Assembly: GCF_023650955.1 (NCBI RefSeq)
Contig: NZ_CP098039.1
Coordinates: 434,001-498,000, forward strand
Reading direction: 5' to 3'
DNA length: 64,000 nucleotides
Source: Thermosynechococcus sp. HN-54
Lineage (GTDB): Bacteria; Cyanobacteriota; Cyanobacteriia; Thermosynechococcales; Thermosynechococcaceae
Shown here: piece by piece, positions 50,779 to 56,076 of the stretch
Layout: the number at the start of each line of letters is the position of its first letter
Position numbering within the stretch: the stretch's first letter is position 1
The notes under the pieces: model-generated
Told to the model about the DNA's origin: nothing
Database searches by the model: none
What the model saw: the letters and a program-made list of their open reading frames with translations, nothing else
Translations under genes and position numbers: made by a program

Positions 50779-51681
50779 ATGGATCTGTTGCGATCGCTCC
50801 CTTTGGGGCTGTACCTTGAACAACCGGTGACTTGGTTGCACCGCCTTGATCCGCGGGTTAAGTTGGCATGGTTGATGACTTTTTTATTGGCACCCATTTT
50901 GGCGGATGTCACTTGGCGGTTGGGGCTAGTGGTCAGTTTAATTCTCTTGACGCTCCTGGGGGGGATTCCCGCGCGGGTGTGGCGGCAGCAACTGCTGTGG
51001 CTCCTCTTGGTGGGTAGTTTAATTCTGGTGATCACGGCTTTAATGCCCGATGGGATGGCGGTCACCTATCAACCCCGTCGTCCGTTGGAACCCACCGTTC
51101 CGCCAACGAGTTACAGTTATATCCTGTGGCAATTTCGTGCCCAAGTGGGTCAGTTGCCCATTCATCTGCAAGTCTCCCAGCGATCGCTGGAGTTGGGATT
51201 ACGACTCAGTACGCTCCTGTTTACCCTGCTGTACAGTACCCACCTGTTTTTGCTGACAACTGCCCCCGAAGAGGTCACCGCCGGCTTGGAAAATCTGATG
51301 CAGCCCCTCAAGCGCTTTAAGCTACCGGTAGCAGAAATTGCCCTGACCTTGACGCTCTCCCTGCGTTTCATCCCTTTGGTGTTGGAAGAGGTGCAAAACC
51401 TGAGTCGCTCAGTGCGGACTCGTGCCATCAATTGGCGGCTGGTGGGCATTAAGGGCAGTATCAAGCTGTGGCTAGCCCTAGCTGTGCGGCTGTTGGACAA
51501 TTTGCTGCTGCGGGCAGAACAGGTGGCCTGTGCCATGCAGGTACGCGGCTTTCAAGAACCGGGCACCTATGATAACCCGTGGCATCATCTGCGACTGCAA
51601 CGGCAAGATTGGTTGGCTTTGGTGGGCATGGCGCTGTTTTGGTTGGTGCGTTTGGGTTGGTTGGGGGTTGAGCACTCGTGA
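50779..51681 (+). CDS. ECF transporter T-component, orphan
   Basis: A 300-residue CbiQ/EcfT-family membrane protein: MDLLRSLPLGLYLEQ, LDPRVKLAWLMTFLLAP and the two Ala-Arg-Gly-type coupling segments VRTRAINWRL and CAMQVRGFQEPG. A periplasmic insertion near residues 95-125 is proline-rich. No S-component or ATPase gene is adjacent; the likely ATPase is the orphan at 35494. Substrate is unknown. Its TGA overlaps the GTG of the next gene (GTGA), so translation is coupled to the chorismate enzyme. Confidence 0.85.
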   Translation: MDLLRSLPLGLYLEQPVTWLHRLDPRVKLAWLMTFLLAPILADVTWRLGLVVSLILLTLLGGIPARVWRQQLLWLLLVGSLILVITALMPDGMAVTYQPRRPLEPTVPPTSYSYILWQFRAQVGQLPIHLQVSQRSLELGLRLSTLLFTLLYSTHLFLLTTAPEEVTAGLENLMQPLKRFKLPVAEIALTLTLSLRFIPLVLEEVQNLSRSVRTRAINWRLVGIKGSIKLWLALAVRLLDNLLLRAEQVACAMQVRGFQEPGTYDNPWHHLRLQRQDWLALVGMALFWLVRLGWLGVEHS

Positions 51682-53054
51682 TCCGCCCCTGTCAGCCGTG
51701 GCTGTGGCGTTGTCTGCCCCTACGGGGTCGCACGGGTCGCGCTATTTTTCAGCAGTTATTTTTGGCGGAGCCGATTGCTGTTCTCCTCGAAAGTCCAGCC
51801 CAAGCCCCCACACCCCAAGCTCGCTATTCCATTTGCGCGGGGTCACCGCGGTGCGATCGCCAGTGGGTCTTATCCCTCGGTGATGTCTTGCCCACGTTAC
51901 GAACATTTCCCCAAGGGGCGGCTGTGCCCGATGAAGTGAGCCATCTGCCCTTTACGGGCGGCTGGTTGGGATGGCTGGGGTATGAGTTGGCGTGGGAAAT
52001 TGAGGCTCTTCCCCCTCTGAAGCCCGATCCTCTCCCTTTCCCACTGGCGTTCTGGTATGAACCCCAAGCCTTCGCAGTTTTAGATCATCGGGCAGATCTC
52101 CTTTATCTTGCTGCTTCCACCCCGGCTCAACTGGCTGTTTTGCAACAGGCCTTAGACCCAACACCCCCTGAACAGCCCCTGCTGGTTCCCGATCGCCCCA
52201 GCAAGATTGAATTGGCTGCGGGTTGGCAAGCCGATACCTACCAAGCAGCTGTAACCCAGATTCTCCGCCGTATTCGCGCTGGCGATATTTTTCAAGCCAA
52301 TCTTTCCGCCCGCTTTTGTCATTACGGTTCCGTTGATCCATGGCAACAGTACCTGCGGCTTCAGCAGATTAACCCCTCTCCCTTTGCCAGTTTTTGGCAG
52401 ACCCCCTGGGGCTACATTGTCAGTTGCTCACCCGAACGCTTGGTGCAAGTTCAGGGAGACAGCGTGCAAACGCGACCCATTGCCGGTACCCGTCCGCGCG
52501 GCCAAACGCCAGCGGGCGATCGCGCCCATGCCGAGGAACTCCTCAACAATACCAAGGAACAGGCAGAACACATTATGCTCGTGGATTTGGAGCGCAATGA
52601 CTTGGGGCGGGTATGCCAGTGGGGCAGTGTGGTGGTGGATGAACTTTTGACCTTGGAGTACTACAGTCATGTGATTCACCTAGTGAGCAATGTTCGCGGC
52701 CGTTTGCAATCGGGGATATCCCCTGTGGATGTCATCTGTGCCCTCTTTCCCGGTGGCACGATTACGGGCTGTCCCAAGGTGCGCTGTATGGAGATTTTGG
52801 CAGATCTTGAACCCTTTCCCCGCAATTTGTTCTACGGTTCCTGTGGCTACTGGGATCAGCGGGGACACCTAGATTTGAATATCCTCATTCGCACCCTCTT
52901 GGTGGCGGGCGATCGCCATAGGACTTGGGGACAAGTGGGCGCCGGTATTGTCGCCGACAGTGATCCAGAGCGAGAATGGCAAGAATCCCTCAGCAAAGCC
53001 CAGGCCCTGCTCCTTGCCCTTGGGACACCCAGCCCCATCGGTACAGGTGCCTAA
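51678..53054 (+). CDS. Chorismate-utilising enzyme, PabB/TrpE component I
   Basis: A 458-residue enzyme of the anthranilate / aminodeoxychorismate synthase component I family. The catalytic C-terminal domain has QTRPIAGTRPRG, AEELLNNTKEQAEHIMLVDLERNDLG, CALFPGGTITGCPKVRCMEIL and GQVGAGIVADSDPEREW. PIAGT is compatible with both TrpE and PabB. The N-terminal half has the glutamine-amidotransferase-docking fold (LPFTGGWLGWLGYELAWEIE), favouring PabB of folate synthesis; this choice is inference. GTG 51678 overlaps the T-component stop, and its 3' end shares a CTAA with DUF3122. Confidence 0.9.
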   Translation: MIRPCQPWLWRCLPLRGRTGRAIFQQLFLAEPIAVLLESPAQAPTPQARYSICAGSPRCDRQWVLSLGDVLPTLRTFPQGAAVPDEVSHLPFTGGWLGWLGYELAWEIEALPPLKPDPLPFPLAFWYEPQAFAVLDHRADLLYLAASTPAQLAVLQQALDPTPPEQPLLVPDRPSKIELAAGWQADTYQAAVTQILRRIRAGDIFQANLSARFCHYGSVDPWQQYLRLQQINPSPFASFWQTPWGYIVSCSPERLVQVQGDSVQTRPIAGTRPRGQTPAGDRAHAEELLNNTKEQAEHIMLVDLERNDLGRVCQWGSVVVDELLTLEYYSHVIHLVSNVRGRLQSGISPVDVICALFPGGTITGCPKVRCMEILADLEPFPRNLFYGSCGYWDQRGHLDLNILIRTLLVAGDRHRTWGQVGAGIVADSDPEREWQESLSKAQALLLALGTPSPIGTGA

Positions 53055-53527
53055 GCCTCCTCAATCAAGACGTGCCACTCCACAACCACAGCAGCGGGAA
53101 CCGCGATTTCAATGCCCTGCTCCTCTAGGGGCGGACGCAACACTAAGGGTTCACTCTGGGGGAGGTGGGGTACAAGGGGCAACAGATCAAACTGTCCCAC
53201 ATTGGCAACGCTGTCTGCCTTGGGAAAGTCATCCACGGCTGTCAGGGTTTGACCGCTCGACGTGATCAGCACCAAGGGATCGGGATGGCGAAAGTGGTAC
53301 TGCTCGGGAAACCCCACCAAGCGCAACTGCAACTGGTCACGACGGGAAAAGAGAATCACCTGCCATGTAAAGCCACGATTATCGCGCAACTGATGCCGAG
53401 ACTGCACCACCACTTGATTGGGAGCTTCCTCAATTGTGCGAATCATGGCATTGCTGCTAGGGGACACCGCAAGCCACAGGGGAATCACTAGCAGGATCAG
53501 CAGTAAACAACGTTGCCAAGGTGCCAT
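53051..53527 (-). CDS. DUF3122 protein, exported
   Basis: A 158-residue protein with an N-terminal signal segment (RCLLLILLVIPLWLAV) and a mature beta-rich part matching the cyanobacterial DUF3122: YHFRHPDPLVLITSSGQTL, ADSVANVGQFDLLPLVPHLP and VPAAVVVEWHVL. Function unknown. It lies 18 bases after the Tll0287-like gene on the same strand, so it may belong to an operon with it and the SQR-like gene. It shares a CTAA with the convergent pabB-like gene. Confidence 0.8.
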   Translation of the reverse strand: MAPWQRCLLLILLVIPLWLAVSPSSNAMIRTIEEAPNQVVVQSRHQLRDNRGFTWQVILFSRRDQLQLRLVGFPEQYHFRHPDPLVLITSSGQTLTAVDDFPKADSVANVGQFDLLPLVPHLPQSEPLVLRPPLEEQGIEIAVPAAVVVEWHVLIEEA

Positions 53528-53545
53528 TGGCGTTCCTCCTTCTCC

Positions 53546-54121
53546 TTAGGGTGAGGTTTGGAGGGCCTGTTGAATTTGCGGAATCGTCACGGCGTACATG
53601 CCCCGTAGATCGCCAACGCGAAAGTCAAAGGCGCGATCGCTGGGATATTTTTCTTGAATAAAGGCAGGGCGGCGATTTTTCGCCCCATGGCAGGCAAGGC
53701 AACTGGCTTGGACATCAATGCGACGGAAGTAATGCACTCCCTCACGATCCGTTTGCCAAAAGGCTTGCAGTTGACGATTGTTGTCAAATTGATTCAGGGC
53801 TTGAACTTCAAGAGCGGTACGCGGGGCGTGGTTGGGGTTGCGGTACTTTAGGGCTACCTGACGCACTTGCCAACCGTTGGTGGCAGCAATTTCCTTGGCT
53901 TTCTTGCCTACGGGCGCACAAACAGCCTTAAAGGTGTCAAGGGTGGGTTCGCTGGGACTCCCTTCTAGGGTAGAGGCAAGGCCAATGCGCATTTGATCCA
54001 ATTGTTCAATGGCGGTTACGGCTTTCCCCAGTTCATCGGGATTCACACTGGCCAATGTGGCTAAGGAACCCTGAGCCCATAGGGATACCATCAATAGCCC
54101 TATGAGAAAGATTCGCACCAT
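53546..54121 (-). CDS. Tll0287-like c-type heme protein (DUF3365)
   Basis: A 191-residue exported protein of the family named after T. elongatus Tll0287. The signal segment is FLIGLLMVSLWAQGSLATLA; one CxxCH heme-c motif (SCLACHGAK, Cys141-Cys144-His145) follows a helical PAS-like sensor domain. ATG 54121 has AAAGGAG 9 bases upstream; the earlier start at 54151 reads through it. The position next to an SQR-like gene suggests a redox or sulfide-related role, which is inference. The family protein has a known crystal structure but no firm function that I recall. Confidence 0.9.
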   Translation of the reverse strand: MVRIFLIGLLMVSLWAQGSLATLASVNPDELGKAVTAIEQLDQMRIGLASTLEGSPSEPTLDTFKAVCAPVGKKAKEIAATNGWQVRQVALKYRNPNHAPRTALEVQALNQFDNNRQLQAFWQTDREGVHYFRRIDVQASCLACHGAKNRRPAFIQEKYPSDRAFDFRVGDLRGMYAVTIPQIQQALQTSP

Positions 54122-54161
54122 ACAAGTTGCTCCTTTATTAAATTTTGTCAATGTTTACCTG

Positions 54162-55460
54162 TTAAACTTTCACGGTTGGTTGCTGCTCTAGCAACGCGGT
54201 GGATTGCAGGGGACGCACGAGGGAGAGGCCAAAGAATAGCCGCAGTCCCCACTGTTCAAACCAAGGAACACTTAGCCCCCATCTCATTTTCAGCAGGAAG
54301 TAGTGCTCAAAGACAGCCTTGACCCAACTGACCCACAATCCTTGAATGGCGTAGGCCAAGCGGCGCTTTTGCCCGAGGGCCTCAGGAATCACAGGAGCGG
54401 CAATATAGGCAATACCCGTATCACCAAAGTCAGCAAAACAGAGGGCATCCAGTGTTGGCACGACAGGGTCAGCGGCTAATTCCCCAAGGGCAACAGCAAT
54501 ATTGTGGCTGGCAGCGATCGCCATCTCCTCGGTCATTTGCCCGGTTTTGGGCAACCCCACGGGAACAGGGGTGACTTCTAAAGGCTGAAGGTGAACACTA
54601 ATGCCAACCCCATAGATCTCAGGATAGTTGGGATGTTGAAGGGTAGGCAGCAGGGGCAAAAATCCCTTTTCATTGCCAAGGCCGCAGGCGCGCACAAACG
54701 AGGCTCCGCGAAAGGACGGCAAAATCATGCTGTAGCCAAAGGGGATGCTCCGTCCATCTCGTAGCAGAATCCGATGCGGCTCAAGGGCGGTGATCTCAGC
54801 GTTGGTGATCGTTTCAATGCCCCGTTCCTCAATCAAGTTGCGGGTGAGTTGATCGCTGTTGGCCAAGCCGCCAATTCCCAAGTGGCCAACGTAGGGTTCA
54901 GGGGTAATGAACGTGATCTTGACGCGATCGCGCAACCCATGACGCCGCAGGGCATGCTCCGCCAAAAACAGAAATTCATAGGCAGGTCCAAAGCAACTGG
55001 CTCCCGGCGCCGCACCCACAACTAAGTCCTTGGGGTCTTTGAGAAATTCTTGCCATGCTCTATGGGCGGCCACTGCATGGGCGGGAGTACACACCGAATG
55101 ACTATGGATGCCAAGGCCGGGAATCAGATCGAGGGCGAGTTCTGCCCCTGTGGCAATCACTAAGTAGTCGTAGTCAAGGGTTTGCTCAGGCAAATAAACC
55201 TTCTTTGCTTCAGGATCAACCCGCTGCACTTTGCCCTGCACCCATGTCAACCGATGCCGACGGCTCACCGTCTCTAAGGGTACTTGTAGGCGTTCGAGGG
55301 AATTGTGTCCTAGGGCAACCGCCACTAGTCCCGGAATAAACGTAAAGCGATCCACATCGGAGACTAAGACCACTGCATGGCGATCGCCCAAACGATGCTT
55401 CAATTCATAGGCTGTGGGCAATCCGCCGATGCCCGCCCCTAGGACAACCACCCGTGCCAT
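54162..55460 (-). CDS. Sulfide:quinone oxidoreductase-like flavoprotein
   Basis: A 432-residue member of the SQR/flavocytochrome-c-sulfide-dehydrogenase-like family. FAD motif VVLGAGIGGLPTAYELK (5-20), LVIATGAELAL, and PGASCFGPAYEFLFLAEH. Cysteines at 124 (SVCTP), 156 (ASCFGP) and 341 (ALCFADFGDTG) are at the places of the redox cysteines of SQR, so real sulfide:quinone activity is plausible. It heads a run with the Tll0287-like and DUF3122 genes. GAGGA lies before the ATG, and the A/T-rich region upstream could hold an ArsR-type operator. The C-terminus is amphipathic, as for monotopic membrane enzymes. Confidence 0.85.
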   Translation of the reverse strand: MARVVVLGAGIGGLPTAYELKHRLGDRHAVVLVSDVDRFTFIPGLVAVALGHNSLERLQVPLETVSRRHRLTWVQGKVQRVDPEAKKVYLPEQTLDYDYLVIATGAELALDLIPGLGIHSHSVCTPAHAVAAHRAWQEFLKDPKDLVVGAAPGASCFGPAYEFLFLAEHALRRHGLRDRVKITFITPEPYVGHLGIGGLANSDQLTRNLIEERGIETITNAEITALEPHRILLRDGRSIPFGYSMILPSFRGASFVRACGLGNEKGFLPLLPTLQHPNYPEIYGVGISVHLQPLEVTPVPVGLPKTGQMTEEMAIAASHNIAVALGELAADPVVPTLDALCFADFGDTGIAYIAAPVIPEALGQKRRLAYAIQGLWVSWVKAVFEHYFLLKMRWGLSVPWFEQWGLRLFFGLSLVRPLQSTALLEQQPTVKV

Positions 55461-55638
55461 GACCGTATCCTCTGCAAATTTATTTAATTAACTATATGGT
55501 AGTATAAGAATATGCAATTGGCTACAACCGTCTGTGCTACGGAGAACCCTAGAGTCGCACTGAATTGATCCTGTGGCCTTGTCGCGGCAGCCGTTGGGAC
55601 TATACTGGAAAGAACACGACCTGTTGGAAGCCCATCGG

Positions 55639-56076
55639 ATGAATAGTTGCGTCCTCTTTGCAGAAGTGATTCAAGCGCCAGAACTGCGCTACACCCAAGA
55701 AAATCAGATGGCAGTGGCGACAATGGTGGTGCAGTTTGCCAGCTTGCGCAGTGAAGAGCCACCTATGAGTTTGCGGACAGTAGCTTGGGGCAATTTGGGG
55801 CAAAAAATGCAGGCGGAGTGCAAAGTGGGCGATCGCCTGATCCTCGAAGGTCGGCTAAAAATGGACACGATTGACCGCCCGGAAGGCTTCAAAGAAAAAC
55901 GTGCCGAGCTGGTGGTGAGCCGTTTCTACACCGTTGAAGGAAATATTGTGGATCATCCGGCACAGCCGGCAACCGCCCCCATGGCCACACCCGCAGTTAC
56001 AGCACCTGTGACACCTAGGGTGGCACCCCCACCCCCTGAACCCGAAGATATTAACCTAGATGAGGTGCCTTTCTAG
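55639..56076 (+). CDS. ssb: Single-strand DNA-binding protein
   Basis: ATG 55639 gives a 145-residue OB-fold protein: MNSCVLFAEVIQAPELRYTQ, MAVATMVVQFASL, VAWGNLGQKMQAECKVGDRLILEGRL. A Pro/Ala/Thr-rich linker leads to the acidic tip DINLDEVPF, the partner-binding C-terminal tail of SSB. The domain is slightly diverged from E. coli SSB (it is one of the cyanobacterial SSB types). Its stop shares CTAG with the convergent mannosidase. Confidence 0.92.
   Translation: MNSCVLFAEVIQAPELRYTQENQMAVATMVVQFASLRSEEPPMSLRTVAWGNLGQKMQAECKVGDRLILEGRLKMDTIDRPEGFKEKRAELVVSRFYTVEGNIVDHPAQPATAPMATPAVTAPVTPRVAPPPPEPEDINLDEVPF

Follow-up and report, generated by a model that had tools for sequence, protein, structure and literature searches.

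Three adjacent minus-strand genes in a 64,000-nucleotide stretch of the Thermosynechococcus sp. HN-54 genome (contig NZ_CP098039.1, positions 434,001 to 498,000; the whole stretch is hereafter called the window) encode a flavoprotein that looks like a type I sulfide:quinone oxidoreductase (SQR), an orthologue of the exported c-type heme protein Tll0287, and an exported DUF3122 protein. Comparison with other cyanobacteria places them in a cluster of SQR, psbA, Tll0287 and DUF3122 genes that is more conserved than the window alone could reveal, and we tentatively propose, with a confidence that falls a little short of even, that they represent, in Thermosynechococcus, a module with which cyanobacteria photosynthesise when sulfide is present and oxygen is low. 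Although water oxidation is poisoned by sulfide, numerous cyanobacteria carry out photosynthesis in sulfide and low oxygen; besides SQR and variant D1 proteins, little is known of the components involved. Our survey would add two exported proteins to this set, and would tie a heme protein of solved structure both to sulfide and to low-oxygen photosystem II (PSII); its function is directly testable in a thermophile that is used for PSII structures.

Among 386 cyanobacterial genomes searched, the Tll0287 family (PF11845) was present in 98, this type of SQR in 35 and DUF3122 in 154; 67 regions were fetched and gene-mapped, and neighbours were counted within 4 kb of tll0287. A first set of 34 loci from 15 families was hand-picked from the PF11845 list (open frames of at most about 263 aa). 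It includes one locus (G270) that joined after its nearby psbA appeared; five loci from two other families (f32 and f36), for which no PSII gene was found, and five loci of a second stand-alone PF11845 group, TLL2, were left out, and one locus (G239) lay below the profile threshold. A second set of 71 further loci came from named genomes searched with the Tll0287 sequence only, after 9 of 80 had been dropped as duplicates of the first set. With SQR taken to include other SQR types and partial genes, and with some contigs ending inside the 4-kb span, the first set contained SQR at 17 loci, DUF3122 at 19, psbA at 10 and an ArsR regulator at 12, and at least one of SQR, DUF3122 and psbA at 25 (24 of 33 without G270); the corresponding counts in the second set were 28, 41, 21, 18 and 61. 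Across both sets, SQR, a non-standard psbA or DUF3122 lay within 4 kb at 86 of the 105 stand-alone Tll0287 loci. Forty random 16-kb regions from the same genomes contained no SQR, DUF3122 or ArsR gene and two psbA, these being matches to the PsbA profile of which one was weak (170 bits). The HAMP-type PF11845 loci (L002-L031) provide a weaker control with about 1.5 kb of flanking sequence; SQR, DUF3122 and psbA were found at 0/30, and the TLL profile also matched at five of them. The first-pass annotation of the window had named a non-conserved neighbourhood as grounds for abandoning the grouping, and this objection falls away on that point because the cluster is conserved across many cyanobacterial families.

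Gene order varies around this common theme. SQR-Tll0287-DUF3122 is found at L032-L035 and L038-L040, an ArsR gene follows SQR in the order SQR-ArsR-Tll0287-DUF3122 (L036, L037) and SQR-ArsR-Tll0287 (L043, L044), and psbA-Tll0287-DUF3122 occurs in the absence of SQR (L051, L052, L054); elsewhere psbA-Tll0287 is accompanied by petC, another type of SQR and hemN (e.g., L065). As an aside, petC (the Rieske protein) lies close to Tll0287 at L057, L065, L176, L262, L266 and L269, mostly together with a low-oxygen psbA.

The psbA genes in these neighbourhoods are consistently of one kind. At the 31 loci with psbA within 4 kb of tll0287, all encode Ala80 and Leu158, and 30 encode Ala286 (the other is broken), residues which we take to be marks of low-oxygen D1; the standard D1 proteins examined have Gly80, Phe158 and Thr286. 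The manganese ligand Asp170 is kept in 27. The same association appears at genome level, where 33 of 186 genomes of the window's class possess Tll0287 and 153 do not: type I SQR is present in 23/33 of the former against 12/153 of the latter (Fisher p 2e-13), and an Ala286 D1, detected by a pattern search that recognises only Ala286 with its flanking motif, in 25/33 against 25/153 (p 7e-11), both tests ignoring kinship. One or other occurs in 32 of the 33 genomes with Tll0287. The sulfide setting suggested by the first-pass annotation stands in so far as SQR recurs near tll0287, but sulfide is not the sole factor, given the 31 loci with a non-standard psbA, often without type I SQR.

Alternatively, Tll0287 might serve only PSII with a low-oxygen D1 of the PsbA2 type, either as a subunit or in assembly, SQR being adjacent simply because both are needed simultaneously. 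The non-standard psbA is upstream and on the same strand at 26 of the 31 linked loci, and its position beside tll0287 agrees with the title of Boussac 2013, which associates Tll0287 with PsbA2-PSII. Against this, the window strain lacks psbA2 and has an intact tll0287, three genomes (G085, G215 and G121) have SQR and Tll0287 with solely standard psbA, and Asp170 is missing from four of the 31 linked psbA, which are of rogue type. PsbA2 proteins of other Thermosynechococcus (G089, G179, G247) have Pro144 and Met173, and these are the three other sampled genomes of this genus, all with psbA2; according to passages of PMC9709244, T. elongatus PsbA2 has the same two residues and its gene is activated in microaerobic conditions. 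The reported partner complex of T. elongatus Tll0287 contains a D1 that the window strain does not possess. Passages of PMC7005997 describe two psbA copies in S. lividus, homologues of psbA1 and psbA3. Since the window strain retains the genes without psbA2, the role of Tll0287 is not PsbA2-specific and strict dependence on PsbA2 was rejected; we consider the PSII-specific explanation unlikely.

The Tll0287 orthologue itself aligns end to end with the solved T. elongatus protein (5b82_A, 383 bits; query 11-201, in TTG-start numbering, to chain 1-191), which is its only PDB sequence match, and shares with it a length of 191 aa, the CLACH motif, Cys68 and a signal-like N-terminus. PF11845 (sCache_heme) is the sole Pfam match (112 bits, cut-off 24.1), and the gene is the only PF11845 member in the window genome, a single 2.71-Mb contig. 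We take Cys68 to be the axial heme ligand; Cys/His ligation is known for T. elongatus Tll0287. The low midpoint potential of Tll0287 plays no part in our argument. Cys68 is present in 104 of the 105 linked-group proteins (33/34 in the first set, 71/71 in the second), whereas the position is Ala in 5/5 TLL2 proteins, 5/5 distant PF11845 proteins and 19/19 HAMP-type proteins, these last coming from the 19 of 30 loci for which a script found the frame. The linked group and its relatives are separated by a single functional residue. The TLL2 loci (L073-L076, L095), which combine Ala at the axial position with a different neighbourhood, have no SQR, psbA or DUF3122 nearby in all five cases. The distant relatives (L055, L056, L067-L069) come from five genomes of the cyanobacterial phylum, and no PSII reaction-centre gene was found there.

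The fold of Tll0287 is that of a Cache sensor domain, according to passages of PMC12889525, and the protein has been described as related to signal transduction in sulfide metabolism in part of a 2021 review (PMC8396549). It could then be an exported signalling input that senses sulfide or redox state and relays this to a partner regulating sqr and psbA. This seems doubtful to us. Pfam detects no output or transmitter domain and the only hydrophobic stretch is at the N-terminus; no kinase is conspicuous among the recurrent neighbour families inspected, although the ArsR regulator recurs (12/34 and 18/71 loci); and a stand-alone sCache_heme relative with Cys/His ligation behaves like a redox protein rather than a gas sensor in passages of PMC12889525, which also record covalent c-heme for the Tll0287 orthologue.

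Some elements of this picture have been reported. Passages of Grim and Dick 2016 (PMC5061849) describe cyanobacterial sqr near group 2/3 psbA and arsR, and those islands carry the same SQR, psbA and arsR markers as relatives of the window locus; one relative (L036) has both arsR and group 2/3 psbA beside sqr. Neither was found in the approximately 20 kb mapped around the window locus itself, and its genome contains no Ala286 psbA. DUF3365 does not occur in the text of that paper and Tll0287 is unmentioned in those passages, whereas in our survey Tll0287 and DUF3122 are frequent members. A sulfide connection of Tll0287 had likewise been put forward already: the relevant part of the 2021 review (PMC8396549) credits it to Motomura 2017. 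Our search found no literature on linkage of SQR, psbA, Tll0287 and DUF3122 or on a split of Cys68 by neighbourhood, and papers outside the searched collection may contain it.

The flavoprotein matches the SQR chains of Aquifex (3hyv) and Acidithiobacillus (3kpk) with 303 and 299 bits over residues 3-412 and 2-407, and contains a Pyr_redox_2 domain with an FAD motif that begins at residue 3. The first-pass annotation placed three of its cysteines as in SQR, and this is confirmed: Cys124, Cys156 and Cys341 are present in 59/59 aligned close relatives and align with the solved chains, at places that we take to follow type I numbering, while the fourth cysteine, Cys259, is not conserved among the same relatives. 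In its nearly whole-length similarity and its three redox cysteines, the protein shows no notable difference from type I SQR of Aquifex, Acidithiobacillus or Geitlerinema (sqr1).

In our proposed module, SQR would oxidise sulfide and pass electrons to plastoquinone, as has been shown for type I relatives elsewhere. Tll0287, exported to the lumen or periplasm and carrying a low-spin c-type heme with His145 and Cys68 as its ligands, would act there beside PSII, most often PSII with a low-oxygen D1. Cys68 may be the working residue, leaving the iron and either carrying sulfide-derived sulfur or becoming oxidised; with water oxidation inhibited, the protein may in this way sense, buffer or oxidise reduced sulfur or surplus electrons at the PSII donor side. 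DUF3122 would be a second exported part, perhaps a partner of Tll0287. In a more specific version, Tll0287 would act in the lumen, perhaps together with DUF3122, as a heme protein that oxidises sulfide or polysulfide or carries sulfur, with Cys68 working as in TsdA, and would represent the second sulfide entry point, 'USO', which passages of PMC5776472 postulate for cyanobacterial anoxygenic photosynthesis; a donor-side site is mentioned in part of PMC5061849. If this is true, low-oxygen PSII could thereby operate in sulfide, but we regard it as quite improbable. In TsdA the Cys ligand of a Cys/His-ligated c-heme carries the sulfur substrate, and in Cys-ligated cytochromes such as SoxA and TsdA the cysteine can be the reactive site (PMC4423706 and PMC9562282), much as might be the case in Tll0287.

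Several observations weigh against the sulfidic, low-oxygen module. The Cys chemistry of Tll0287 is an analogy only, since TsdA and SoxA are different proteins without sequence kinship to the window protein, which matches only PF11845 and 5b82. Six of the 34 loci in the first set (G286, G109, G119, the second of G111, G118 and G207) have no marker genes nearby, and Tll0287 is missing from 25 of 50 genomes with an Ala286 D1 and from 12 of 35 with type I SQR. The only two psbA genes of the window genome (G000; L122, L126) are standard, and psbA2 is missing. Finally, most of the 154/386 genomes with DUF3122 are without Tll0287, and SQR was found within about 4.5 kb at 0/20 DUF3122 loci that lack Tll0287.

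It might also be argued that chance or hitch-hiking brought these genes into one island under one promoter and that they have no common function. Gene order and partners do vary, and linkage labels change at least 17 times for type I SQR, 15 for psbA and 26 for DUF3122 on a poorly resolved 110-row tree. Yet the association is repeated in different combinations while SQR and DUF3122 occur in 0/40 random regions, which indicates selection, and Cys68 is confined to the linked group; hitch-hiking strikes us as a poor explanation. Weakest of all is the idea, entertained in the first-pass annotation, that SQR hands electrons directly to Tll0287. The gene order, SQR then Tll0287 with 40 nt between them, might be cited for it, but proteins acquire c-type heme outside the cytoplasm, whereas SQR has no signal peptide and reduces quinone, so the two are expected in opposite compartments and transfer is very unlikely indeed; moreover, at many Tll0287 loci the neighbour is psbA or DUF3122 and no SQR lies within 4 kb. 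A natural deletion points the same way. In Thermosynechococcus sp. M98_K2018_005 (L194:7394-9040) sqr is reduced to a 3' tail, with no SQR match anywhere in this metagenome-assembled genome, and Tll0287 is intact, and so can persist without SQR. DUF3122 there reads as broken into three separate frames, although coverage is low and an assembly error is possible.

Features of the sqr-tll0287-DUF3122 locus, in window coordinates
Feature	Position	Strand	Characteristics
sqr (SQR, type I-like, 432 aa)	54162..55460	minus	N-terminal FAD motif; Cys124, Cys156, Cys341; signal peptide absent
Tll0287 orthologue, 191 aa	53546..54121	minus	signal-like N-terminus; CLACH (CXXCH heme-attachment motif) at 141-145; Cys68
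DUF3122 protein, 158 aa	53051..53527	minus	signal-like N-terminus; beta-sandwich predicted (pLDDT 90)
intergenic region, common to sqr and divergent ssb	55461..55641	minus	AT-rich block, candidate control element

The open reading frame of the Tll0287 orthologue extends from a TTG (53546-54151, minus strand), and a start there is possible but not favoured; the ATG at 54121 is preceded by a Shine-Dalgarno-like AAAGGAG and gives the same length as the T. elongatus protein. Given this ATG, the gaps are 40 nt (sqr to tll0287) and 18 nt (tll0287 to DUF3122), exactly the spacing first annotated. Downstream, the convergent pabB (51678-53054) is overlapped by 4 nt by the DUF3122 stop, and ssb starts divergently upstream of sqr. 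Directly before the sqr start is an AT-rich block, TATAGTTAATTA then ATAAATTT (55461-55510), which is kept in five Thermosynechococcus genomes and is not visible before tll0287 in the sqr-less M98_K2018_005 locus. Promoter and terminator scans of the locus gave matches no more frequent than in shuffled sequences.

PF11320 is the sole Pfam match of the DUF3122 protein (142 bits, cut-off 25), for which our search found no literature. That the grouping would provide it with a context is borne out by its position within 4 kb of tll0287 at 19/34 and 41/71 loci; it has a wider role as well, since it is widespread in small-genome cyanobacteria without Tll0287 nearby (L111, L112, L114, L115 and others). 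An AlphaFold2 model built from 41 sequences (predicted local distance difference test, pLDDT, 90; predicted template modelling score, pTM, 0.75) had no Foldseek match in the PDB under E 0.001 (best 0.042). VIA comparison aligned it with IalB (3dtd; Z 8.2, root-mean-square deviation 3.9, 125 residues) and, with Z of 4 to 6.4, with unrelated beta-sandwiches including NEAT domains; a function drawn from the IalB-like fold was rejected, as the likeness may be one of common arrangement only. At one locus without Tll0287 (L103:2458-5624), DUF3122 adjoins genes for an ETHE1-like dioxygenase, a rhodanese and a TauE-like transporter.

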